DNA from: Allomyces arbusculus
Taxonomy: Eukaryota > Blastocladiomycota > Blastocladiomycetes > Blastocladiales > Blastocladiaceae
Direction of reading: 5' to 3'
Length of the DNA: 64,000 nucleotides
Assembly: GCA_027604705.1 (NCBI GenBank)
Contig: JADHYV010000030.1
Coordinates: 1 to 64,000 of the forward strand
A model generated the notes under the pieces. That model saw nothing but the letters and a program-made list of their open reading frames with translations, ran no database searches and had not been told where the DNA came from. Positions 1,242 through 50,304 of the stretch are shown here, one piece after another. Both the position numbers and the translations under genes were made by a program. How positions within the stretch are numbered: position 1 is the stretch's first letter; every line of letters starts with the position of its first letter.

Positions 1242-1997
1242 TCAGGGCGCGAGCGCACTCGCGCTGGCGCGCGTCGTGGTCGGCAGGTACTCGAGCATGT
1301 TGCGGAGAAAGACGCACACGACGCCGAATTGATCCTCGTCGGACCGGTCACACATCTGCTCGAAGAGCGAGCGCAGCGTCCCCGTGCAATGAAGGTGCGA
1401 GGTGAGTCCGACGACGACGATCGAATACTGGAGCATCATGCTAAAAACGGAGCGAAAATGAAGCGCGTCAGTTGTTGCAAAGAAGAGGTGCCGTCTTGAG
1501 CAACATAAAACGGACCAGAATGCGGCCCGCAGTGGAAGGACGCGAGGACGAGAACTGGTGCTGGCAGTTGGCGACATCCTTGACGCGGCCCACGCGGGTT
1601 CCACAGCGTCTGCGGGATCCTGCACGGGCGAAATCCACTCGGCGACAATGCGTGTCGGACGTGACCAAAGGTGTTGGTACGCGTTGTATTCGAGCAGGTC
1701 CTGCACGCTGCCAGCGCAGTCGAGCGGACCTTGGTGCAGCACAGCGCGCCCTTCAAAGAACGCGACCGCCGCCTCGGCGTGGTCGAGGAGGGCGTAGTCG
1801 GCGAACACTGAGCAGCCATCTGGGTCTTCCCAATCGCGGGTTACCTGGATGGGCGGGTGTGGGCGAGCGAGTAAAGCAATGTAGACGCTGGCGGGAGGTC
1901 GGCGCCCACGGATTTGGAGGTTGCGGAAGCGAATGCGTGCTTGTGGTTCGGGCCAGGGCGTGCCGACAAGGGATTCGAGATCAGGTTCGACGGTCAT
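1242..1997 (-). CDS. Unidentified protein, about 251 residues
   Basis: A single open frame begins at the ATG ending at 1997. The first ~145 residues look like a folded protein, with alternating hydrophobic and charged segments, for example VYIALLARP at about residues 38-46 and a stretch around AEWISPVQD. The middle (roughly residues 145-175) is basic and Ser/Arg-rich and may be an unspliced intron or a linker. The last ~60 residues are again protein-like (FGVVCVFLRNMLEYLP). I do not recognise a family. No signal peptide is evident. The exact structure is uncertain, because an intron between about 1420 and 1560 cannot be excluded. It is divergent from the Snf7 gene, with ~750 bp between the two starts. 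Confidence 0.4.
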   Translation of the reverse strand: MTVEPDLESLVGTPWPEPQARIRFRNLQIRGRRPPASVYIALLARPHPPIQVTRDWEDPDGCSVFADYALLDHAEAAVAFFEGRAVLHQGPLDCAGSVQDLLEYNAYQHLWSRPTRIVAEWISPVQDPADAVEPAWAASRMSPTASTSSRPRVLPLRAAFWSVLCCSRRHLFFATTDALHFRSVFSMMLQYSIVVVGLTSHLHCTGTLRSLFEQMCDRSDEDQFGVVCVFLRNMLEYLPTTTRASASALAP

Positions 1998-2750
1998 GTT
2001 GATTGTGCAGGTTGGTCGGCAGCGTGCTGAGCGGGGTCACGGTGGGTCGGTCGCGACTAGAAGTGCCGATGTTATGCGTGTAGTTGGACGCGGCGAAGCG
2101 AGTCGGCGCTTGCAGCTCCGCCCCAGCAAGCTGTTTCCAGACCTGATCGACCGAGGCCCTTCCGCGCACGGGTCGCACTCACGTGAGATGGATGCATCTC
2201 TCTGGCAAGGAAGGGCGGCACGGCAGCGCCGCTGATCATTTTCAATCGCATACACATTCAATCGGGCGTGCCCTGTGCGCCGGTTGGCCAGGTCGGCGAT
2301 CGCTCGAAAGTGGCACTTGCGCGCGTCTCCCACGTCTCGCACAATACACACGTGGCGCGTTGTTACGAGCTGCTCAGTGGGCAAATGGAAGAATGAAAGA
2401 AAATGGTTGCTTGATAGGTTGATAGGCCTCATCGAGCGTCATGAAGCGGCAAATTTCAGCATGTGACGTGGCCAGGAGACCGCGTCGCGGCTTGCAGACC
2501 ACCTTGCGCGGTGCACCCAGTCGGCCGCAGACAAAGACGTCAACGGCCACAATCCCCGCTACCGCCGTCGAGGACTTGCACCCCGCCAACTTGCCCCGCC
2601 ACTTGCCGCTGTTGAGCGCTCAGACCTGAGCGCGATCCTCACCCGTTTTTGGACCCGCGCCGACTCGAACCGACCGACACGAATCCGACCCGTCCGACCC
2701 ACTTCCCCGACCCCATTCATTTCGCGCCGCAATCCACCCAACTCGTCACC

Positions 2751-3708
2751 ATGTTCTTGTTCGGCAAGTCCAAGCCCAAGGCGACGCCCAAGGACGCCAT
2801 TATTCGGCTGCGCGAGACGCTCGACATGCTCGAGAAGCGCGAGCGGTACTTGCAGACCAAGATTGACAATGAGCTCAAGGCCGCCAAGGCCAACGCGACC
2901 AAGAACAAGCGCGGTGCGTCTTTGCCTCGACCTTCGGTGTCTCATGCGTTGCGAGGGCGACTGATACCGTTATGCTGGGCGCGTTCTAGTGGCGCTCATG
3001 GCGCTTAAGCGGAAAAAGCAGTACGAGGGCCAAATCGAGAAGATCTCGGGCGCGCGCATGACGATTGAGACGCAAATGATGACGATTGAAAACGCCAACG
3101 TGAACCTCGAGGCCATGAACGCGATGAAGGCTGGTGCCGACGCCATGAAGCAGATCCACGGCGCCATGTACGCTGTCGTCTTGCCGCGTTACAGCATCCC
3201 CATGAACCGTCTTTGACCCACGCCGCCCCCTGCGCCCACATCTAGGGACATCAACAAGGTGGACGCGACCATGGACGAGATCCGCGACCAAATGGACTTG
3301 GCCAACGAGATTTCCGACGCCATCTCGCAGCCTGTCGGGTTTGGCATGGACCTCGACGAGGACGAGCTCAACATGGAACTCGAGATGCTCGAGCAGGAGG
3401 AGCTCGACTCAAAGCTGCTGGGGCTTGACGCGGTGCCGATTTCGGCCCCAAGCGTGCCAACGACGGAGCCGGGTATGTTCGCTTCGCGTCGCGCCTGTCG
3501 CTCGTGCTACTCTTCTGACACCATGGTACTTGCGTGTAGCCGTCGCGGCACGGCCAACAAAGAACCAGGCGCTCGACGAGGACGAGGAGGCCGAGCTCGA
3601 GGCGCTCAAGGCATCCATGGTGCGACTTGATCCACTTGGGTTATTCGGGCTCGCGTCCCGATTCTAACCTCCTCCACTCTTCGCTTCGTCATTTTCTAGG
3701 CCATGTAG
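2751..3708 (+). CDS. SNF7: ESCRT-III subunit Snf7/Vps32 (CHMP4)
   Basis: Five exons: 2751-2913, 2990-3167, 3246-3472, 3540-3619 and 3700-3708, giving 218 residues. Snf7 polymerises on endosomal membranes as the main ESCRT-III filament subunit and drives budding and scission into multivesicular bodies. Seen here: an N-terminal basic segment (MFLFGKSKPK), long charged helices (DMLEKRERYLQTKID; ALKRKKQYEGQIEKI), the conserved stretch DINKVDATMDEIRDQMDLA, the EISDAIS motif, and an acidic C-terminal half (MDLDEDELNMELEMLEQEEL) typical of the autoinhibitory and MIM1-like region. Length matches the family (~220-240). The last exon encodes only Ala-Met-stop. Donors are GTGCG, GTACG, GTATG and GTGCG; all acceptors are TAG. 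The ATG at 2751 has a purine-poor but acceptable context and opens the canonical N-terminus. Confidence 0.93.
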
Positions 3709-4637
3709 TCAATCAACTTTCATTATCATGCAACGATTTGTGTCCTAGCTCGTGTGCGCCATTGTTGTTCAGTGCTCCAGAAACGAACGCGCTCGACATT
3801 TCCCTCTGCCGTCCTCGTCCCTGCTCGAAAATGCCCTCGCATTCTACCCGGGCTCCCTGTACCTACATGTTCCCTTAATTTCCCGCGATATTCCAGGCTC
3901 CGCCTTGACAGGCAACATGTTTTTGGTGTCGCGCGAGAGATTGCCCCCTGCCGCAGGATGCACGCGCCATCCTCACAACTTCCTTCTCCACCCACTCAAA
4001 CCCCTGTGCTGTTCGTCGTCAATGTCGGGCAAAAAGTAGAAGTCACAAAAAATTAGTGAGGGAATGGAAAGGGTGGCCGCGTGGGCGCATCGCCTGGGAC
4101 CTGCCGTGTTGTTCGGTTCACTGGCAAGGTCGAAACCACCACGTTCCAACCGGCAGACGAACCACACGCAATCCAGCACGGCGCTTTCACTTGCAATCAA
4201 GTTTGACCACTCGACCGTCACCGCGACTGTCTGCAAACCCAACCGCGCACCATCTGCACGTCGTCGCCAGGTGCGCCGGGCCGAAATTGACGTTGTGGAG
4301 CCCCAATCCTGTCAGCAAGCCGATGGACCCCCAATCGTTCAAGCTTCTTCAAGCGGGCGACCTGGCTCGGTGACGCTGGACCAAGGCCATGACCCGACGC
4401 CCATGGTCAGGGTCGAGAGTCGCGCGGGCGATGTCGGCTCATTGCGAGGGGAAAGCGGGTGGAATGGGGCTTCGACCATCGCAAATATTCGACTGATCAC
4501 CACGGACGGTTTGCCTTTTTGCCGTTGCTCCTGCACTCCCGCCGCTCGCGTGTAGTAGTCGGCACGATCCTGTACCTACGGCCCACGCTTTTGCGACCCG
4601 CTTCCTCGCTCTCGTCGCCCCTACGACCACCACCACA
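3709..4637. other. Intergenic, no gene seen
   Basis: About 930 bp between SNF7 and the PRPP synthase gene, both on +. It holds the 3' UTR of the first and the promoter of the second. There is no convincing open frame with motifs, and no tRNA or repeat was seen. Confidence 0.5.
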
Positions 4638-6022
4638 ATGCGCGATCTCGTTGTCCTCGGCGGCTCGTCGCACCCAGAGCTGACGCGCGCGATCTGCGAA
4701 CGTCTGGCCATTTCGCCCGGCCATGTGAAGCTCACCAAGTTTTCGAACCGCGAGACCAACGTGGAGGTGATCGAGTCGGTGCGCGGCATGGACGTCTACA
4801 TTGTGCAGTCCGGGTGCGGGTCAGTCAACGACAACCTTATGGAGCTGCTCATCATGATCTCCGCGTGCAAGATTGCCTCGGCGCGCAAGATCACGGCGGT
4901 CCTGCCCTTGTTCCCGTACTCGCGGCAGCCCGACGGTCCTTACAAGCGTAACGGCATGCCGCTCAACCGGCTGTCGGACGAGGCGTGCCAAAAGCTCGCC
5001 GACATGCAGGGCATGCCGTTCCCGCACGTCACATCGCAGCCGGCGTCGCGGTCGCCGTCGCCCACCAAGATGCTCGAGCACCCGGAGCGGTACAACTCGG
5101 TCTATGACGGCGAAACCAAGGTCGGGGCGCCCACCCCCGTCTCGGGCGTTGCGCGGCTGCAAAAGATTCAGGCCGACCACCAGATTGTGCGGTCGCCACG
5201 ATCGACGTCGCCCGTCTCGGCCTACGGCGGCAGCGTCAATGGTGGCCAGGGCAAGGCCGGCGCGCAGTACAAGTTGTGGACGGCCAAACCGGGGACGCTG
5301 ATTGCCGATATGCTCGTGGCCGCGGGCGCGCACCATATTATTACGATGGACATGCACCACCCACAGTTCCAAGGGTTCTTTGACATTCCGGTCGATAACC
5401 TCAACAGCTACCCGCTCATGTACAAGTACATTGTCGAGAAGATCCCGGACTGGAAGAATGCCGTCATTGTGTCGCCCGACGCGGGCGGTGCCAAGCGGTA
5501 CGGCTGTTTCCTCCTTTCGACTGGTTCATGTTGCGACGAGCGGTCCTCATTTCATCTCGTTTGCCTTCCATTAGAGCCACCGCCATTGCCGACGCCCTCA
5601 ACATGAACTTTGCCCTGATCCACAAGGACCGCCGGCACGCCACGTCCACGCTCACGCTCGTCGGCAACGTCAAGGATCGTGTTGTGATCATGATCGACGA
5701 CATTGCCGACACGTGCCACACGCTCGCGCGTGCCGCGCACGTGCTGACGCGCAACGGCGCTGCCAAGGTCTACGCGCTCGTGACGCACGGGATCATGTCT
5801 GGCGATGCCATTGACCGGCTCGTGCGGTCGCCCATCGACACGCTGATCGTCTCGAACACGGTCCCGCAGGTCGAGCACGTCAAGGCGGCGGCGGCCGCGT
5901 GCGGGCGCGCCGATAAGATCAAGGTGTTTGATGTGGCCCCGATCCTGGCCGAGGCCGTGCGCCGCATCCATAACGGCGAGTCGGTGTCGTTCTTGTTCGA
6001 CATTGTGCCGATCGTCAACTAG
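4638..6022 (+). CDS. PRS: Ribose-phosphate pyrophosphokinase (PRPP synthase) with internal insert
   Basis: Two exons, 4638-5497 and 5575-6022, giving 435 residues. The enzyme transfers pyrophosphate from ATP to ribose-5-phosphate, making PRPP for purine, pyrimidine, NAD, His and Trp synthesis in the cytosol. Motifs: N-terminal FSNRETNVEV, the catalytic-site FPYSRQ (~residues 92-97), the signature TMDMHHPQFQGFFDIPVDNL (~237-256), SPDAGGAKR, and the PRPP loop MIDDIADTCHT. Ordinary PRPP synthases are ~315-320 residues. This one carries ~115 extra residues between FPYSRQ and KPGTLIADML (about 98-215), comparable in place to the non-homologous regions of yeast Prs1/Prs5. The insert is rich in Ser-Pro pairs (SRSPSPTK, RSPRSTSP), suggesting phosphorylation. 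The intron donor is GTACG. Confidence 0.95.
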
Positions 6023-6521
6023 GCGACGGCGCGTTGCGGTGCCTGGCGCGCGACGGCGATCGTTTTTGCTGCTTCCTGTCTTTAGTTTCCCGTTTTTTGG
6101 TTCAAGTACCCCATCTCTCGCCTATCGTTGCCCTCGCGCGCCGGCCGTCCCCGCCTGTGATTTTCCTTCATTCTCGTCTTGGTCACGTAAAATACGTTGC
6201 GATGGTCCTTGTCCATTTGTTTTTCCAGGCCTTTCGATTTCCGCTTATGCAACTTGCTGGGGAAATGATGCCAGAAGCCGACTTGTTGCAAAGTTGCTCC
6301 AACGCTTCCGCCACAACTGGCGCAACGCAACACCAACCACAACCACCAACCGAACCCCCTGGCAAACCAAGCTGAACAACCAACCCGGTCTCGTCAAGCC
6401 CGACGCGCGCTCAACTGCCCGCAAAAGCTCGCCCGTAAATTCCCGACACCTGTCCATCTGCGCGCCGCGCCATGTGGCCGCAGCATGCATGCCCGTGCCG
6501 AATCTTGACGACGTGTCGCGG
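6023..6521. other. Intergenic, no gene seen
   Basis: This is the 3' flank of the PRPP synthase gene and the upstream region of the fructose-bisphosphatase gene. No motif-bearing frame, tRNA or repeat was seen. Confidence 0.45.
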
Positions 6522-6527
6522 TATAAA
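6522..6527 (+). promoter_or_regulatory. TATA box of the FBPase gene
   Basis: A TATAAA (in GGTATAAAGCC) lies 84 nt upstream of the FBPase start codon at 6606. This is a plausible core-promoter distance for a gene with a short leader. TATA-driven transcription fits a gene usually under strong carbon-source control, but no regulator site was identified. Confidence 0.5.
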
Positions 6528-6605
6528 GCCGGCCGACGCCCGCGCGTTACCGCTCGAGCTCTTCTCTTCCCGACCCGAGTCCTTTGCACGAACCACGATT
6601 TTACC

Positions 6606-7856
6606 ATGAGCGACCACACCAAGACCGACCTTGTCACGCTGTCGCGGCATGTCCTCGCCGACCAGCAGGCACACCCGGGCGCGTCGGGCGACTTGACGCT
6701 GCTGCTCGTGTCGATTCAGCTCGGCTGCAAGTTTGTCGCGACGTGCGTGCGCAAGGCCGGCATTGTCAACTTGTACGCAGCCCTGCCAGCACGACCGTAA
6801 CTGCGTTCGAGATCGAGCTGACGCGCGCGACCGGCTACTAGGACGGGTCTTGCAGGTGAGACCAACGTGCAGGGCGAGGACCAGAAGAAGCTCGACGTGC
6901 TCGCCAACGAAATCTTTGTCAACTCGCTGCGTTCGTCTGGCAAGGTGGCCATTATGGTCTCCGAGGAGGACGAGGACATGATTGTCGTGTCCGACGCGGA
7001 TCGTGACGGCGACCACGCTCGCTACGCGGTCGTCTTTGACCCGCTCGACGGCTCCTCCAACATCGAGGCTGGCGTTTCGATCGGCACGATTTTCGGCATC
7101 TACAAGTTGCTGCCCGGGTCCAAGGGCACGAACGCCGACGTGCTCCGCCCCGGTCGCGAAATGGTCGCTGCGGGCTACTGCATGTACGGCTCGTCGACGA
7201 CCATGGTCTTGTCGACCGGCGGCGGTAAAGTGCACGGGTACACGCTCGACACGACGATTGGCGAGTTTATTCTGACGCACCCGGACCTGCGCATGTCGCC
7301 GCGTGGGAAATTGATCTACTCGATCAATGAAGGCAACTCGGTCTACTGGGACGACGCATGCGTCGAGTACTTTGGCGCGCTCAAGAACCGCACCGTCGAG
7401 GGCAAGCCCGCGCCGTACGGCGCGCGATACGTCGGGTCGATGGTCGCCGACGTGCATCGCACGATTTTGTATGGTGGGATTTTCGCCTACCCGGCCGACA
7501 AGAAGTCCAAGTCGGGCAAGCTGCGTGTGCTCTACGAGTGTTTCCCGATGGCGTTTATTGTCGAGAACGCTGGTGGCCGTGCGACGACGGGGACCAAGCG
7601 GATTTTGGACCTGGAGCCGACCAAGTTGCATGAGCGGTCGGGCATTTTCCTCGGGTCGGCCGACGACGTGGCCGAGCTCGAGGCCGTCTACGCCAAACAC
7701 GCGGCGGGTGCGGCCGTGGCCAAGGTGGCCGAGGTGGCCGCACCGGTAGAAGCCGCGGTCGTGGCCCCGGCGGCCGAAGGCGCTCCCAAGCCCAAGACGA
7801 CGCCCAAGAAGTCGCCGTCGAAGAGCAAGGGCAAGAAGCGCGGCGGGCGCAAGTAG
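6606..7856 (+). CDS. FBP1: Fructose-1,6-bisphosphatase with lysine-rich C-terminal tail
   Basis: Two exons, 6606-6772 and 6842-7856, giving 393 residues. It hydrolyses fructose-1,6-bisphosphate to fructose-6-phosphate, the committed step of gluconeogenesis. Seen: NLTGLAGETNVQGEDQKKLDVL across the splice junction (AMP/substrate region), SEEDE (metal ligands), FDPLDGSSNIEAGVSIGT (metal and phosphate site), GSMVADVHRTILYGGIFAYP, and the family signature GKLRVLYECFPMAF. The catalytic domain ends near residue 335. The last ~58 residues are unusual for FBPase: an Ala/Val/Pro-rich linker followed by a basic stretch (PKPKTTPKKSPSKSKGKKRG) resembling histone-H1 or nuclear-localisation tails. The reading frame through the tail is the same exon as the domain, so it is not a splicing artefact of my model. 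Confidence 0.95.
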
Positions 7857-8284
7857 ACGACGACGACGACGATGGATGTTGTCTGTGGCCTGTGCGGGCC
7901 ACTGCTTGTCTTATTTTCTCATCATTTTTGCTCCCCACACATTGCCCGAATCAACTGGATCGTTTTGCTCAGCTTTTGAATGACAAAAGAGCGGCCGTGC
8001 GCGGGTCGTGTGCTGTCGCGGTGCTCACGGTCGATCGTGATGCAAATGAAATTGAGTCCACGTCACATTCACCGATCACATTGAGCGTCTTGTCGAAGTC
8101 GTGTCGGCTTTCCGCGGCTCGGCTCCCGACGTCGACCACCAAATCTGTTGGCAACAACGCTCCCCGCACAACGGCGAGCAGCAGTTGGTCTTGTTACCAA
8201 CGTTTGGATTGCGTGCCGAGCGCGAGCGCGACGTTCTCGACTCAGCTCCAACCGTCCAACGTCCAGCACCAGGCTCCCAAGACG
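7857..8284. other. Intergenic between FBP1 and helicase gene
   Basis: About 430 bp. The helicase frame stays open upstream to an ATG at 7892, but the translation there has low-complexity non-conserved sequence, so I treat it as leader and promoter. No other feature was seen. Confidence 0.4.
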
Positions 8285-11200
8285 ATGATTGGCAGCGCCG
8301 GCGCAAACGTCAAGCCCGAGCCCGCCGCCCAGCACGCCGTCATGTTCAAGTCGGACCCGTGCGGCGCAGCCGCAGCCAAGCAGGAGCCAATGGAGCAGAA
8401 TCCCAACATCAAGCAGGACATCAAGCCCGACGTCAAGTTGGACGTCAAGCCCGACCTGAAGCCCAACATCAAGAATGAAGCGGGCGCGCCCGAGGGCGGG
8501 TACCCGCACCTGCAATCGCTCAACGACGCGCAGTTTGGCGCTGTGACGTGCGATAACCCGGCCCTGATCATTTTGGCCGGCCCTGGTGCGTGAGCCACAA
8601 TTCTGCACAGAGCTCCAAATTGGAATGGCCACTCACCGGATGCCGCCTGGCGCGGTGCATTTCCATTGCTAGGGTCGGGTACGCACTCTCCATCTTCTCC
8701 ACCTGGAAATCCTGCGAGCAAGTGACTCACGATGGTTTCGCTCCAGGCAAGACGCGCGTTATCACGTCGCGCGTGGCTGACCTCGTTCTGCGGCGCGACG
8801 TGCGGCCGGAAAACATTGTCGTTGTCACGTTCACTAACAAGGCCGCCAATGAGATGCGCGAGCGCATTCAAAAGGCGATTGGGCCGTACATGACGGGTCG
8901 GCTGCAAATGGGTACGCTTTATGCTGCGTTTTGAACCGCTTGCGCGTTGATCGCGCTCACACAACGCTTTCTGACTTCTTTGAACGACAGGCACGTTCCA
9001 CGCGCTGTGCGCCAAACTGTTGCGCAAGCACGGGTACCGCATCGAGCTCAAGAGCAACTTCACAATCGCTGACCGGTCAGACAGGTACGGTTCTTGCCGT
9101 GACTTCTCAATCGCAGCCAACCAGTTTCTGACGCTCTTTTGCTCGGCTGGATAGCGAGGCGTACATGAAGCGCATTGTCAAGGCTGTTGACCCGAAATGC
9201 ACCAAGCCCGCCAACTACCTGTGGGACATCTCCAAGTTCAAGGCGCGCAACCAGGGCCCCGCTGACGTGCTGAGTGCCGTGAGCCCCGGCGCGGCCCCGT
9301 GGGAGGTGCGCAAGGCCCAGCTCTTAGCTGACGTGTTCACGTACGTGTGCGCGCTCAATGCATTTTGCTCCCTGGCGGTGCACCGAAACTAAATTTTTTC
9401 GACGCGTCTGTTTCAAAGGAGGTACCAGGACGAGCTCAAGGCGCACAACATTCTCGATTTTGACGACTTGCTCGTCTATGGCCACCAGCTGTTCACGGCC
9501 ATGCCCGAGCTCAGCGACGGCATGCACGAGGTGCTCGTTGACGAGTTCCAGGACACGAACGCGATCCAGTACGACTTGACGACTATGATGTGCGCCAAGC
9601 ACCAGCATCTGACGATCGTTGGCGACCCGGACCAGTCGTACGTCCTCCACCCCGCATCTCGACCTCACCCCATCTCGCATCATCTCACGCTGGACCCATT
9701 CCCTTCGTCACTCCTAGCATCTACGCTTGGCGCGCGGCCGACGTGACCAACCTGCACAAGGTGCAGAAGCTGTTCCCGGCCGCGTCGATGATCCACCTCG
9801 AGGAAAACTACCGATCGACGCAGGCCATCTTGCAGGCCGCACACCGCGTCATTTCGCAGGACAAGAAGCGCATTGCGAAGTCGCTCTACACGAACAACCC
9901 GATGGGCCACGCCGTGTTTGCCAAGGGCCACTTGACCTCGCAGCGTGAGGCCGAGTTTGTGTGCAACCAGATCCGAGGGCTCGTTGCAACCGGCCAAGGG
10001 CAGATTATCAATGGCGATTTTGCCGTGCTCGTGCGGTCTGGGTACTTGACGCGCTCGCTCGAAGAAGCGTTTGTGCGCGCCAAGATCCCGCACCGGATCG
10101 TATGTTCACATCCACTGAGTTCAGGCCACTTGGCGATTTTGATTCACACGCACAGCGATTCATGCTAGATCGGCGGCATGCGCTTCTACGAGCGCACCGA
10201 AATCAAGGACGTACTCGCGTACCTGCGTCTTGCCGACAATCCGCACGACCGGCCCTCGTTCGAGCGCGTGATCAATGTTCCCGCGCGCGGGATTGGCGAC
10301 ACGTCGGTCGGCCACATTATTGAGGCCGCCAACGCGCTGCAGATTTCGTGCTATGATGTCGCCAAAAAACTCGCCAACAAGGAGACGGTGCCCGGGATCA
10401 AGCGCATTTCGCGTGTCAAGCTGGCCGAATTCGTGGCCGTGATTGAGAAGTTGCGCGAAATGGCCGCGCAGCCCGACACGAACGTGGCCGATATTATTGC
10501 GTATCTCGTCTCGGCGACCAAGTACGAGGACTACTTGAAGGCGAAAGACGCCAAGGAGGCGACGACGCGGTGGGAGAACGTGCAGGAGTTGCTCAACACG
10601 GCCGCGCAACATTCAGCGTCGCTGGATGACGACGAGGAGGAGAAGAATGAGGACGAGGATGCCATGGACGAAGATAACGATGACGACGACGACCGCCGCG
10701 ACAGACCGACGGTCGACGCGAGCGTGCCGCTGCGGTCGTTCCTCAACTCGGTGTCGCTCGTCTCCGATATCGACCAGGAAACGGACCAGTCGAAGGTGAC
10801 GATCTCGACGCTGCACGCGGCCAAGGGGCTCGAGTGGCCGGTCGTTTTTGTCGTTGGCGCCGACGCATCGCAGCTGCCGCACGCGCTCTCCACCGGGCCC
10901 GCCCAAATTGAGGAGGAGCGCCGGTTGCTCTATGTCGGCATGACGCGTGCTGAGCGGCTGCTCTACGTGACGTGGCCTGAGCGGCGGACGCGCTACGGTA
11001 CGCCGACGCCACGCCTGAGCTGTGGATCATTTGTGAGACGATTTACTGACGCGTGATGTCGTAGGCGGTGACGAGGCAACCATTCGTTCGCCCTTCCTCG
11101 CATGCCTCGACGGGGCCATGTTCCCGAAGACCAAAAAGCTGCTCCTGACCACGGCGTCGCCGACGGTGGATCAGCCGCTGCTCGACTTCTTCACGAAGGT

Positions 11201-17740: not shown

Positions 17741-18033
17741 CCTCGACCGCGTCCCGGTCTCGTCGAGTCATGGCGAGGAAAGTGCGTCAGCGTGCGAATC
17801 TCATGAGCAGTGCGCGATCACGACGTGGCTGCCTACCCGAACGAAGTGCCTGGTGACGCGGTTTCGCTGGCCGATCGAGTCATCGGTGTCGCGAGAGACA
17901 GGAATGCAGGAGCATGCTGCGCTGCGAGCCCAGCGTGACCCTCGCTTGTGAAACGGCAGCAGCGTGGGATCGTCACGAGGTCGCCACTTAACGCGATCAT
18001 CCATCAAATTTTGCATCAAACGAACCGCGACCA

Positions 18034-18196
18034 GGTCTATTAGCAAACTCCTTATGCCACAGTGCAACAAGATTGCTGCTAGGAGACACGAATACGCGAA
18101 ACAAGCCTTGCATCAGGCCGCTCGGGTACCATGGCGATGGTGGATTGCCAAAAATGGTCTGTCCAACCCTTCGCCCACCGGAAACCCGAGCCCAAC
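18034..18196 (+). repeat. Dispersed ~165-bp repeat, copy 1
   Basis: It runs from GGTCTATTAGCAAACTCC to CGAGCCCAAC and matches 19023-19184 in the same orientation, at roughly 85-88% by eye with one single-base gap near the end. No flanking duplication is apparent at this copy. On the minus strand both copies keep an open stretch around MQGLFR and NLVAL-HKEFAN. This may be a relic of coding origin or chance. Size and dispersion suggest a SINE-like or other short mobile element. I see no full RNA polymerase III box A/B pair. Confidence 0.8.
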
Positions 18197-18214
18197 ACTC
18201 CTCTGGAACGCACG

Positions 18215-18995
18215 GAGCGCTATGAGAGGGGACGCTCAAGGCGCCCCTGGACACACGGTCCAGAATGCTACATCACCCTCCTCCACCCGACCAACCTGGC
18301 AAATCCGACGGATTGGCGCCTTGGAGAACATCCGCGACACGATGGCGGGCCGCAAGCTGCGCACGGCAGACGGTGAGAGAGTGGCGCGACTCGCGCACAG
18401 CACAGGCACTGACTGTGGCTCGCGGTAGCAGTGACGTGGCGGACCGCGACGGGGGCCGGCTCAGGGTGCTTGGGCTTGTTGCTGCCCAGCGTCGCCCTCA
18501 GCGACGGGCGCTGCGGGGGCGGCAGGGACAGCTGGGCCGCGACAGCATTGGTGCCAGCTGTGCGAGGGCGACGGCAGTCACGGCACAGCACACATGGACG
18601 GGGCGGCCACTGCGGTGGCAGGACCGGCAAATCGGCGACAAGCCTGGACGTGCGGGCGGTGCAGCTTTTTCTGGATCCCAGTGGAGCACAGGTCGAACAA
18701 CAGTGCGAGCACGCGGCGTGGGCATGGCGGTCGCAGCGCGCCCTCGTCCGCCTTGGACGCATTCATGGTGGCTGAGAACAACTCCCTCCACCGGGCGAGG
18801 TTGTCGCGCGTGATCGCCGTGGATGCAAGGCAGCGAAGGTGGACGGGGCCTGGGTCGTGCGGCAGCAGCCACTGTGCGAACTGGTCGGGATGTTCACCCA
18901 GACCATGCCACATCCCCTCAGGGTAAGCGGACCGGATCGCGGCAGCGACGTTGGTGCACAGGCTTTCACACCCGAAAGGCCAGCGGTGGGGATCA
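18215..18995 (-). other. Possible coding remnant between the repeat copies
   Basis: On the minus strand the DNA between the two repeat copies reads as protein-like sequence starting FDPHRWPFGCES and continuing through GMWHGLGEHPDQFAQWLL and LARWRELFSATMNASK. An overlapping second frame is Cys/His-rich (ACSHCCSTCAP; RPCVLCRDC), like a zinc-binding segment. I recognise no family. It could be a decayed host gene or part of a mobile element bounded by the two repeats. There is no convincing start or splice model, so it is not called as a gene. Confidence 0.25.
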
Positions 18996-19016
18996 AACCC
19001 GTCAACATGGTGTAGA

Positions 19017-19184
19017 GACGAGGTTTATTAGCAAACTCCTTATGCCGCAGTGCGACAAGATTGCCGCTAGGAGACATAAATATGCGAAACAAGCCTTGCA
19101 TCGGGCCGCTCAGGGAACCACGGTGGTGGTGGCTCGCTAAAATTGGTCTGTCCAACCCTTCGCCCACCGGAACCCGGGCCCAAC
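19017..19184 (+). mobile_element. Short repeat (copy 2) inserted at tRNA-Val with target duplication
   Basis: This second copy of the dispersed repeat is bracketed by GTCAACATGGTGTAG at 19002-19016 and again at 19185-19199; the base before each is also C, giving 16 identical bases. The downstream copy is the 5' end of an intact tRNA-Val; the upstream copy is an orphan fragment. That is what a target-site duplication would look like if a ~168-bp element entered 15 nt inside the tRNA gene, with the duplication rebuilding the complete tRNA. A 15-16 bp duplication is typical of target-primed (LINE-mobilised, SINE-like) insertion. No coding capacity for transposition is seen in the copy itself. 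Confidence 0.65.
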
Positions 19185-19257
19185 GTCAACATGGTGTAGT
19201 CGGTTATCACATCTGTCTCACACACAGAAGGTCCGCAGTTCGAATCTGCGTGTTGAC
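19185..19257 (+). tRNA. tRNA-Val (anticodon CAC)
   Basis: A 73-nt cloverleaf: acceptor GTCAACA pairs with TGTTGAC over seven bases; the D arm GTGT-AGTCGGTTA-TCAC has the common Val-type loop; anticodon stem TCTGT/ACAGA encloses loop CTCACAC, so the anticodon is CAC (reads GUG, Val); variable AGGTC; T arm CGCAG-TTCGAAT-CTGCG. Internal boxes A and B are intact and there is no intron. The first 15 nt lie within the proposed target-site duplication, and the immediate 5' flank is the repeat element. Confidence 0.92.
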
Positions 19258-19555
19258 AAATAGCCTCGGTTGAGTCTGAAGTGACTCCTATCATTTGCTT
19301 TAACTGTTATGCGGCTGTTTTTGCTTCCGGTTACCATGTGACCAACGTCGATTTTGGATATTAGAAGCAGAAAATATTGGATCGCAAAGTCAGGGTGACA
19401 GAGAGTGACATGGCTTCTCGCTGAACAGACGCCGACCTGTTCCTCAATCAATCCTAGCGTCAAAACCGAAATGGATGTTGCAACACTGGTGGACAATACT
19501 CTCTCCCCACTCCCCTCCCCATCCCGTCCCTTCCCTTCCTACCACTTCCTCGTTT

Positions 19556-47021: not shown

Positions 47022-50000
47022 ATGACCGACCAGCTCCGCTACGACAACCGCGTCGTCATTGTGACGGGCGCCGGCGGCGGTACGCTGCGCACCACCACGA
47101 CGCTCAGGACCAGCACCATGAGCAGCACCAACTGACGCGACGCGATTCCCGAAATTACTAGGCATCGGCCGCGTCTACGCGCACTACTTTGCTTCGCGCG
47201 GCGCCTCGGTCGTCGTCAACGACCTGGGCGGCTCCACGACGGGCTCGGGCGCCGACACCAAGGCAGCCGACGTGGTCGTCGATGAGATCCGCAAGGCCGG
47301 CGGCAAGGCCGTGGCCAACTACAACTCGGTCGAGGACGGCGAAGCCATTGTCGAGACGGCGCTCAAGGCTTTCGGCCGCGTCGACATTGTCATCAATAAT
47401 GCCGGCATCCTGCGCGACAAGGGTTTCGCGCGCATGACCGACGACGACTGGGACCTGGTGCACCGCGTGCACGTGCGCGGGTCCTACAAGGTCACGAAAG
47501 CCGCGTGGCCGCACATGCAGAAGCAGAAGTACGGCCGCATCATCATGACCGCGTCGGCCGCCGGGATTTACGGCAATTTCGGGCAGGCGAATTACTCGGC
47601 GGCCAAGCTCGCGCTGCACGGGTTCGGCATGTCTCTCGCGCGCGAAGGCGCCAAGAACAACATTCACACGAACGTGATTGCGCCGATCGCCGCGTCGCGC
47701 ATGACGGCGACGGTAATGCCGCCCGAGGTGCTCGAAGCGCTCAAGCCCGAGTTTGTCGCGCCCCTGGTCGGTTACCTGACGCATGAGTCGACAACCGAGA
47801 ACGGCGGCCTGTTTGAGGTCGGTGCCGGGTTTGTCGCCAAGCTGCGCCGCGAGCGATCGCACGGCGCCGTCTTCAAGGCCGACGCGTCGTTCACGCCCAC
47901 CTCGGTTGGCGCCAAGTTCCCGGAGATCATTGATTTCAGCCAGCCGCAGTACCCGTCGTCGATCATGGAGACGGATTGGATGGCCCTGCTCGAACGCGCC
48001 AAGGCGCTGCCGTCGAACCCGAACCCGGAGCCGCAACTGCGGTTTGACGGCAAGGTCGTGCTCGTCACGGGCGCTGGTGCCGGGATTGGCCGCGCTTACG
48101 CGCACCAGTTTGCCAAGCTCGGTGCCAAGGTGGTCGTGAACGATCTCGGTGTCTCGACGACGGGCTCGGGCTCGGACGCTAAGGCGGCAGATGTCGTCGT
48201 TGAGGAGATTCGCCAGGCCGGTGGCACGGCCGTCGCCAACTACGACTCGGTCGAGGACGGCGACAAGGTGGTCGACACGGCGATCAAGGCGTTTGGCCGC
48301 ATCGACGTGATTGTCAACAACGCCGGCATCCTGCGCGATAAGTCGTTCACGCGCCTGACCGATGCCGACTGGGACTTGATTCACCGTATTCATCTGCGCG
48401 CGTCCTACAAGATCATCAAGGCCGCGTGGCCGCACATGGTCAAGAACAAGTACGGCCGCATCATCAACACGTCCTCGGCCGTTGGCCTCTACGGCAACTT
48501 TGGCCAGACCAACTACTCGGCGGCCAAGGCGGGCATTGTCGGTCTCTCGTCGACGCTCGCGCTCGAGGGGAAGAAGAACAACATTCTCGTCAACACGATC
48601 GCGCCCAACGCGGGTACGCGCATGACGGCCACGGTCCTGCCACCGGAAATGGTCGAGGCGCTCAAGCCCGAATACGTTGCTCCCCTTGTCGCGTTCCTTG
48701 CGCACGAGTCCAACTCGTGTTCGGGCGGCATCTTTGAGTGCGGGTCCGGCTGGGCGGCCGCTGTCCGCTGGCAGCGGTCGGGCGGGCACGGGTTCCCGCA
48801 CAACAAGCCGCTGACGCCCGAGGCTATTGCCGCGCAGTGGTCGGCCATCACCAACTTTGACGACGGCCGCGCGACCTACCCGACGTCGGCCGCCGAGTCG
48901 TTCCAGACCCTCTACGCCAACATTCAGAACACCGAGGCAGCCGACGCCAAGGCGGCTGCGGCGGCCAAGAAGGGCGGCAAGAAGCAGGCGGTCCCGATCG
49001 ACGTCGAGAAGGCGATCAAGGCCACGTTCCCGTCGTCGTCGTTTGCCTTCACTGAGCGCGACGTGATCCTGTACGCGCTCGGCGTTGGCGCGACGCGCAA
49101 GGACCTGCCGTGGGTCTACGAGAACTCGGAGCAGTTCCATGCGCTGCCGTCGTTTGGAATCATCACGGGCTTTGCCGCCATGAACGCCGTGCCGTTTGGC
49201 GACTTTTTGCCGGAATTTAACCCCATGATGCTGTTGCATGGCGAGCAGTACCTCGAGCTCAAGAAGCCGATCCCGACGTCGGGCACGTTTGTGACGACGC
49301 CCAAGATTGTCGATATTCTCGACAAGGGCAAGGGCGCGCTCGTCACGATCGGTATCACCACGACCGACACGCAGGGCAATGAAATCTGCTACAACGAGGG
49401 ATCGCTCTTCATTCGCGGGCTCGGCGGATGGGGTGGGCGCAAGGACGGCGCTGACCGCGGCGCAGCCACGGCTGCCAATGTCATCCCGAAGCGCGCGCCC
49501 GACGCGTCGGTCACGGAAAAGACGTCCGAGGACCAGGCTGCGCTCTACCGCCTCTCGGGCGACTTGAACCCACTGCACATTGACCCGCAAATGTCGGCCA
49601 TGGGCGGGTTCGACGTGCCGATTTTGCACGGCCTCTGCACGCTCGGCGTCTCGGCCAAGCACGTCTACAGCCACTACGCTGGCGGCGACCCGGCCGCGGT
49701 CAAGTCGATCAAGGGCCGGTTTGCCAAGCACGTGTTCCCGGGCGAGACGCTGCGCACCGACATGTGGCGCGAGGGGAACAAGGTGCTGTTCCAGGTGACG
49801 GTCGTTGAGCGCAACGTTGTTGCGGTCGCGAACGCTGCCGTCGAGTTCCACAAGATCGCTGGCGGTGCTGCCGCTGCTGCTGCGCCCACTGCGGCCCCGG
49901 CCGCCGCGAAGGCATCGGGCGTGATCGTCGATGGGTTCAAGGCGTCGGCTGTCTTCCAGCAGCTCGCGGCGTCGATGGCGTCGCAGACGTCGGCCGCGCG

Positions 50001-50304
50001 CACCGCGCAGGTGGGTAAGGTTAAGGCCGTGTTCCAGTTTGACGTGAAGAATGGCGCGGGCGCCGTGCAGACGTGGCACCTGGATCTCAAGAACGGTGAA
50101 GGTTCGTTGGGTGTGGGTGCGGCCAAGGGCAAGGCCGACGCGACGATTGCGATTGGCGACGACGACTTGGTGAGTCTGGCCATGGGCAAGACCAACGGGC
50201 AGAAGCTGTTCCAGACGGGTAAGCTCAAGATCAAGGGCCAGATGATGCTTGCGATGAAGCTGGATGGGATCTTCAAGGGCGCGGGCAAGCATAGCAAGAT
50301 GTAA
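47022..50304 (+). CDS. FOX2: Peroxisomal multifunctional enzyme type 2 (two dehydrogenases, hydratase 2, SCP2)
   Basis: Two exons, 47022-47079 and 47162-50304; 1066 residues. It catalyses hydration of trans-2-enoyl-CoA and oxidation of (3R)-hydroxyacyl-CoA in peroxisomal beta-oxidation. Domains: SDR A (~1-300) with TGAGGGIG spanning the splice site, NNAG and Y-SAAK; SDR B (~315-610) with TGAGAGIG, NNAG and NYSAAK; a hotdog hydratase 2 (~650-925) with the motif YRLSGDLNPLHIDPQMS; and an SCP2 sterol-carrier domain (~955-1060) with VFQFDVKNGAGAVQTWHLDL and GDDDLVSLAMGK. It ends KHSKM, so Ser-Lys-Met is a near-canonical PTS1. Ascomycete Fox2 has two SDRs without SCP2; the animal enzyme has one SDR with SCP2; this protein has all four. 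Confidence 0.96.

Follow-up and report, generated by a model that had tools for sequence, protein, structure and literature searches.

A short repeat beside a tRNA-Val gene of Allomyces arbusculus is very probably the trace of a site-specific non-LTR retrotransposon (LINE) that inserted into the tRNA gene itself. The window, i.e., the whole stretch of 64,000 nucleotides analysed here, belongs to contig JADHYV010000030.1 (C30 in the following, where C with a number denotes a contig). Sequence comparison revealed the identical 16-mer CGTCAACATGGTGTAG at window positions 19000-19015 and 19184-19199. The second occurrence forms the start of an intact tRNA-Val gene with anticodon CAC (19185-19258, plus strand), identified by ARAGORN and scoring 66.5 bits with the Rfam tRNA model against a cut-off of 29. 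The first is an orphan, which comprises nucleotides -1 to 14 of the tRNA-Val (CGTCAACATGGTGTA, 19000-19014, plus strand) and represents the outer target-site duplication. Two bases, GA (19015-19016), separate A14 from the core of the element. The element lies antisense to the tRNA (19016-19184, minus strand) and corresponds to positions 7760-7928 of a LINE copy on C50, with 99.4% identity. The inner duplication restores the head of the tRNA and occupies 19184-19198 on the plus strand; base 19184 can be assigned equally to the LINE copy or to this duplication.

A preliminary description of the window had recognised the orphan and the identical tRNA-Val head around the repeat, and had proposed that a complete tRNA was left with a new 5' flank; both points are borne out by the repeated 16-mer, the intact downstream tRNA-Val and the duplication that covers its head. 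Entry inside the tRNA near box A likewise stands, but the breakpoint, given there as 15 nt, is best placed after A14, because the next G may derive from either the tRNA or the element. The view of the repeat as a tiny non-coding element had to be abandoned, since the window carries a copy, truncated at its 5' side, of a LINE of 7.9 kb.

An older and longer copy of the same LINE, of about 0.93 kb, occupies 18029-18961 on the minus strand, in the same orientation as the first, and matches positions 6992-7927 of the C50 copy with 83.2% identity. It includes decayed ORF2 coding sequence with stops (protein matches at 18276-18542 and 18362-18961), and a tRNA head, looked for at its 3' end (C30:18029), could not be recognised there. 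The 168-bp repeat at 19017-19184 is represented a second time in the window, at 18029-18196, with 88% identity. A reading of the two copies as terminal repeats of an LTR or TRIM element was rejected, both being tandem pieces of one LINE end. Between the older copy and the orphan duplication lie 38 bp that cannot be aligned to the LINE (18962-18999, no strand assigned); in reverse, this segment resembles by eye the end of a tRNA T-arm. A paralogue of the tRNA-Val gene on C32 is 96% identical and has no orphan head; its flanks are non-homologous, and no empty allele was seen. Elsewhere in the window, a gene matching a Fox2-type peroxisomal multifunctional enzyme contains a direct repeat of 75% identity (47161-47828 and 48082-48749), probably a duplicated dehydrogenase domain; the gene spans 47122-50301 and shows 100% identity to GGF31_004702 from Allomyces arbusculus.

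The partner LINE with a common 3' end, anticipated in the preliminary description, is a full-length copy of 7928 bp on C50 (approximately 1845-9772 of the stretch C50:124800-134799), flanked by a 15-nt duplication. Pfam searches identified an endonuclease (Exo_endo_phos, PF03372, 2.2e-10) in one ORF, and a reverse transcriptase (RVT_1, PF00078, 3.8e-15) followed by an RNase H (RNase_H, PF00075, 1e-15) in the long ORF. The ORF1 frame gave no Pfam match; a CCHC-like motif is visible in it by eye. Among solved structures, the reverse transcriptase matched R2 (8.9e-14) and human LINE-1 ORF2p (2.8e-12), and the endonuclease ORF matched no PDB structure. Related proteins were found in Blastocladiella emersonii only (42-44% identity), plus five distant ones. 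No long terminal repeat occurs at the ends of the C50 copy, whose self-match is a single continuous alignment. By its predicted endonuclease and reverse transcriptase domains, with neither LTRs nor integrase, the element qualifies as an APE-type non-LTR retrotransposon, and its copies show the common 3' end, variable 5' truncation and target-site duplications of a LINE. They run antisense to the tRNA, and their 3' end immediately follows tRNA nucleotide 14. Counted against the insertion model developed below are the missing structural match of the endonuclease and the state of the C50 copy, in which the endonuclease and reverse transcriptase frames are discontinuous and overlap out of register; any present activity of the element is thus putative. 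The same contig carries two inverted tRNA-Pro genes (C50:125866-126643) with flanks that are 98% identical, one of which harbours the full-length LINE and the other a 118-bp piece.

A search of the whole assembly (25.9 Mb, 197 contigs) with the repeat returned at least 18 matches. The junctions were assessed at 30 LINE 3' ends, comprising all 18 of these matches, 11 of 13 from a second search, and one from a junction-pattern search; C13:434917 (3' end missing) and C32:110146 (sequence not retrieved) were left out, and C71:65974, C146, C100 and the far end of C187 lay outside the survey. A tRNA head with no more than two mismatches adjoins 22 of the 30, compared with 25 of 3000 positions picked at random from sequence in which tRNA genes also occur; the offset is thus shared with other tRNA genes, as had been suggested. 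Among the 29 for which the flanks were read, 16 are exact at the tRNA head, three have one mismatch and two have two; the 22nd, C21:266489, adjoins an exact Met head by coordinates. One further end, C107:40989, was scored with three mismatches owing to a frame shift by the common TAG, and its 16-nt head is exact after a 3-nt shift. This copy is without its last bases and is joined at TAG, which is common to the tRNA and the LINE, an arrangement that fits internal priming by short pairing of the tRNA primer end with the RNA. Three ends (C50:134680, C120 and C7) have three mismatches, a level equalled by 151 of 3000 random positions, and are ambiguous. Four (C30:18029, C3, C25 and C1) lie away from tRNA heads and count against the model. 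The preliminary description had held that copies far from tRNA genes and without duplications would contradict its reading; the survey places 23 of the 30 at tRNA heads and four elsewhere, with three ambiguous.

The junctions fall into two families, which differ in their targets. Family A (GTGTA|GA|GACGAGG) occurs at Val, Pro, Gly-TCC and Gln tRNAs, which have a head ending in GTGTAG, and family B (GGCGCA|AG|GACGATG) at tRNA-Met, with a head ending in GGCGCA. Both fit a common scheme of tRNA nucleotides 1-14, two purines and GACGA, which places the breakpoint between A14 and R15 in either family. Pattern searches yielded 12 hits for family A, 11 for family B and 18 for the common core, with none for each reversed pattern. 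No family B junction was found at TAGCTCA heads and no family A junction at Met heads. A third family at TAGCTCA heads was considered and dropped: the searches gave 9 and 11 hits, the reversed patterns 8 and 8, and the true junctions belonged to A, B or the SINE described below. LINE fragments near tRNAs on C12, C46, C187 and C25 are off-geometry or of uncertain fit and were counted against the rule. A tRNA was found by ARAGORN at 7 of 10 loci with ORF2 fragments, a biased count, as the stretches were picked with the tRNA places known. At C46:76650-79300 and C187:4400-6600, ORF2 fragments occur near tRNA-Ala and tRNA-Thr, respectively, and their 3' ends were not found; these possibly represent further families.

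The interpretation of the flanking repeats as target-site duplications was corroborated genome-wide by duplications of 14-19 nt at two-sided sites. At 12 such sites, the exact shared run ending at A14 measures 15 nt in seven cases (Val on C30, Pro on C50 twice, Pro on C71, Gly on C54, Gly on C107 and Met on C44), 14 nt in three (Met on C32, C30 and C24) and 19 nt in one (Gln on C178), and is decayed by one substitution in the last (Met on C149). In 11 of the 12, the duplication starts 0-5 nt outside nucleotide 1 of the tRNA (ten at nucleotide 1 or -1, and once at -5). The duplicated segment thus covers the head from its 5' end, or from slightly upstream, and supplies barely enough sequence to rebuild the tRNA. 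Exact upstream duplicates of the tRNA head of at least 14 nt accompany 12 of the 56 distinct tRNA genes examined; nine of these are element sites and three are tandem tRNA genes (two tRNA-Lys on C16 and one Ala on C3). The longest head match was 12 nt in shuffled upstream sequence (20 shuffles each) and 11 nt downstream, apart from tandem tRNAs (22 and 18 nt). The tandem tRNA-Lys(TTT) genes are located at C16:294780-296590. A counterexample is provided by C21:163433, where a tRNA-Met is split and not rebuilt, with about 6 nt shared, one of them mismatched.

Occupation of the target was also counted at tRNA-Met. The 14-nt Met head has 19 exact copies in the genome (none for the reversed control), eight of which are orphans with an element 3' end directly after them. 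Of the remaining 11, nine have LINE or SINE sequence immediately upstream: SINE at C5, C18:181581, C24, C30, C32:185853 and C149 (the last judged from the head alone), and LINE at C44, C32:252757 and C21:266934 (a decayed tRNA). The other two (C18:293210 and C37:153914) show no element in the 500 and approximately 320 bp examined upstream. For tRNA-Pro, one head has eight exact copies, including three orphans followed by an element. The SINE is a follower of 188-189 bp that has about 60 nt in common with the 3' end of LINE B and a body of 126 nt of its own; all seven matches of this body lie beside a Met head or an orphan head. Its 3' end shared with a LINE and its unrelated 5' body are those of a SINE. 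A simple A or B box was found on neither strand of four copies, the tRNA-Val control being positive for both, and the body had no match in Rfam. From its sequence, the follower is thus SINE-like in build, without the usual pol III promoter, and presumably uses the machinery of family B. It could instead be a SIDE-like deletion product of a LINE B 5' end that has not been seen.

Several tRNA genes have evidently been hit more than once. Four orphan heads lie upstream of a single tRNA on C107 and three on C50, with LINE pieces between them; two layers are found in the window, at the Met genes of C30 and C32, and on C149. Newer insertions fall between the tRNA and the earlier ones. Identity of the 3' ends to the window copy drops outward (99, 99, 97 and 81% on C107; 99, 90 and 87% on C50; 100 and 88% in the window), and the outer copies thus appear to be generally more diverged. 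Whole fragments compared with the C50 copy give 94.3, 98.6, 97.1 and 70.0% on C107, with one inversion of the order.

Taken as sequence evidence, the common 3' end, the 5' truncation, the 14-19-nt duplications and the orientation show the anatomy of target-primed reverse transcription, as the preliminary description had surmised. The endonuclease of the element would nick the sense strand of the tRNA gene between A14 and R15, in box A, and the freed 3' end (...GTGTA or ...GCGCA) would prime cDNA synthesis on the LINE RNA, perhaps aided by pairing with its last bases. A cut in the second strand about 15 nt away, at the 5' boundary of the tRNA, followed by fill-in, would duplicate nucleotides -1 to 14. 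A whole tRNA with a complete internal promoter would then be left beside the 5' end of the element, open to repeat insertion. Repeated hits on the rebuilt tRNA would let copies accumulate on its upstream side, each separated from the next by an orphan head. At the 3' end of the RNA, pairing holds in 96.2% of cells, and the score for covariation exceeded 500 of 500 shuffles; two-sided pair changes (2) and extra pair types (11) were equalled in 202 and 186 of 500 shuffles, respectively, and single-sequence folding gave z-scores of -1.50, 0.62 and 0.21. These values lend weak support to a conserved 3' RNA structure in the LINE.

The endonuclease need not be what selects the site. The pol III machinery (TFIIIB/TFIIIC on the tRNA gene) might guide the LINE, as pol III factors are described to do for TRE5-A and Ty3 (PMC5391098, PMC5006619), and the presence of elements at tRNA genes of several isoacceptors agrees with this. 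The breakpoint, however, is exact to the nucleotide inside the transcribed region, whereas TRE5-A is reported to insert 47+/-3 bp upstream (PMC5391098). Moreover, families A and B divide the tRNAs by head sequence (GTGTAG or GGCGCA), with B absent from TAGCTCA heads and A from Met heads, and the off-target copies on C3, C25 and C1 lie away from tRNA heads altogether. We therefore consider guidance by pol III in place of box A recognition unlikely, although the two may have been combined. A somewhat stronger case, still a doubtful one, can be made for an endonuclease that cuts loosely, with selection purging the insertions that destroy a tRNA, such that the exact duplication is in part survivorship. 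The unrebuilt tRNA-Met at C21:163433, the tRNA relics at C21:266934 and C50:134993, and imperfect 12-nt direct repeats (by eye) at C3 and C7, neither of them next to an intact tRNA, speak for this explanation. Selection alone would also pass longer duplications, whereas 11 of 12 begin so close to the tRNA start, and the sense-strand breakpoint at A14 is identical in both families.

Two further explanations carry little weight. That the window copy is an independent SINE or other small tRNA-derived element, or that copying was primed by a tRNA fragment, is most improbable: the 188-bp SINE-like element does exist at tRNA-Met, but the window copy aligns with the LINE from end to end, and the duplications reach into genomic sequence beyond the mature tRNA (-1, and -5 to -1 at the Gln site of C178), bases that would be absent from a tRNA fragment. 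An origin of the duplicated heads in assembly error or segmental recombination might be suspected in a draft of 197 contigs, yet it is scarcely credible, as one and the same junction is found with differing tRNAs and element lengths on no fewer than 12 contigs.

Genomic islands and prophages of bacteria that insert into tRNA genes leave a whole tRNA gene, as the Allomyces LINE usually does, but they are recombinase-based and the replacement sequence is carried by the element. Among eukaryotic retrotransposons, TRE5 is described at approximately 47-50 bp upstream and TRE3 at about 100 bp downstream of tRNA genes, and 61% of the D. discoideum tRNA genes are reported to have a TRE (PMC5391098, PMC5006619). 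According to these accounts, TRE5-A and TRE3 resemble the Allomyces LINE as non-LTR elements at tRNA genes whose repeated hits build tandem TRE-TRE arrays; they differ in that insertion is outside the gene, guided by pol III complexes, and the tRNA is neither cut nor rebuilt. The breakpoint of the Allomyces LINE lies at tRNA nucleotide 14, and not some 50 bp upstream. Closer in position is Dp_NLTR-A of Dictyostelium purpureum, described as a non-LTR element with an RNase H after the reverse transcriptase, located 2-6 bp upstream of the mature tRNA, an as-yet unobserved specificity (PMC5006619). Both the domain order and the location close upstream of a tRNA recall the Allomyces LINE, and Dp_NLTR-A may have arrived at the same solution independently; the comparison is by description alone, the text searched in PMC5006619 mentioning neither a target-site duplication (TSD) nor entry into the tRNA. 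Dada DNA transposons are reported to insert precisely inside tRNA genes, in many families at nucleotides 8-13, in box A (PMC3706591, PMC8869645). Like the Allomyces LINE, they would thus be exact within the gene and at box A; unlike it, they are described with a DDE transposase, 6-7-bp duplications and disruption of the tRNA, as opposed to the RT, EN and RNase H domains and 14-19-nt duplications found here. Dewa of zebrafish, a sequence-specific, tRNA-associated non-LTR element, is similar in these respects but is said to target the spacer of a tRNA-Leu array (PMC3706591). R1 and R2 are cited as LINEs with specific sites in multicopy RNA genes, accompanied by SIDEs, which are short followers with a common 3' end, and R1 produces duplications of 14 bp (PMC3414825); their target is rDNA, and the gene is interrupted. 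As far as the consulted portions of these descriptions extend, a rebuilding duplication appears in none of those of TRE5/TRE3, Dp_NLTR-A and Dada. No LINE inside box A of a tRNA in fungi was found in the open-licence literature, Repbase and subscription journals being outside the scope of the search.

In compact genomes, mobile elements are known to lodge next to tRNA genes or to disrupt redundant copies. By contrast, the Allomyces LINE goes into the transcribed part of the gene, where the pol III promoter lies, and its target-site duplication is of a length that restores the gene. We tentatively suggest, as a reading that is possible and not yet the probable one, that a fungal LINE lineage evolved a stagger equal to the spacing between box A and the 5' end of the tRNA, whereby an insertion into an essential gene by itself repairs that gene; that two families pick isoacceptors by a six-base head (GTGTAG or GGCGCA); that the tRNA gene acts as a fixed port which pushes older copies outward in order of age; and that the promoterless follower at the tRNA start is putatively expressed from the upstream region of the tRNA. 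The stacked orphan heads form a record of insertion order at one site. If the endonuclease is responsible, the system would make it possible to test directly how a LINE endonuclease recognises a conserved motif of an RNA gene and how the two nicks are spaced. Families A and B, with their different heads, lend themselves to a natural comparison of what determines the choice of target.
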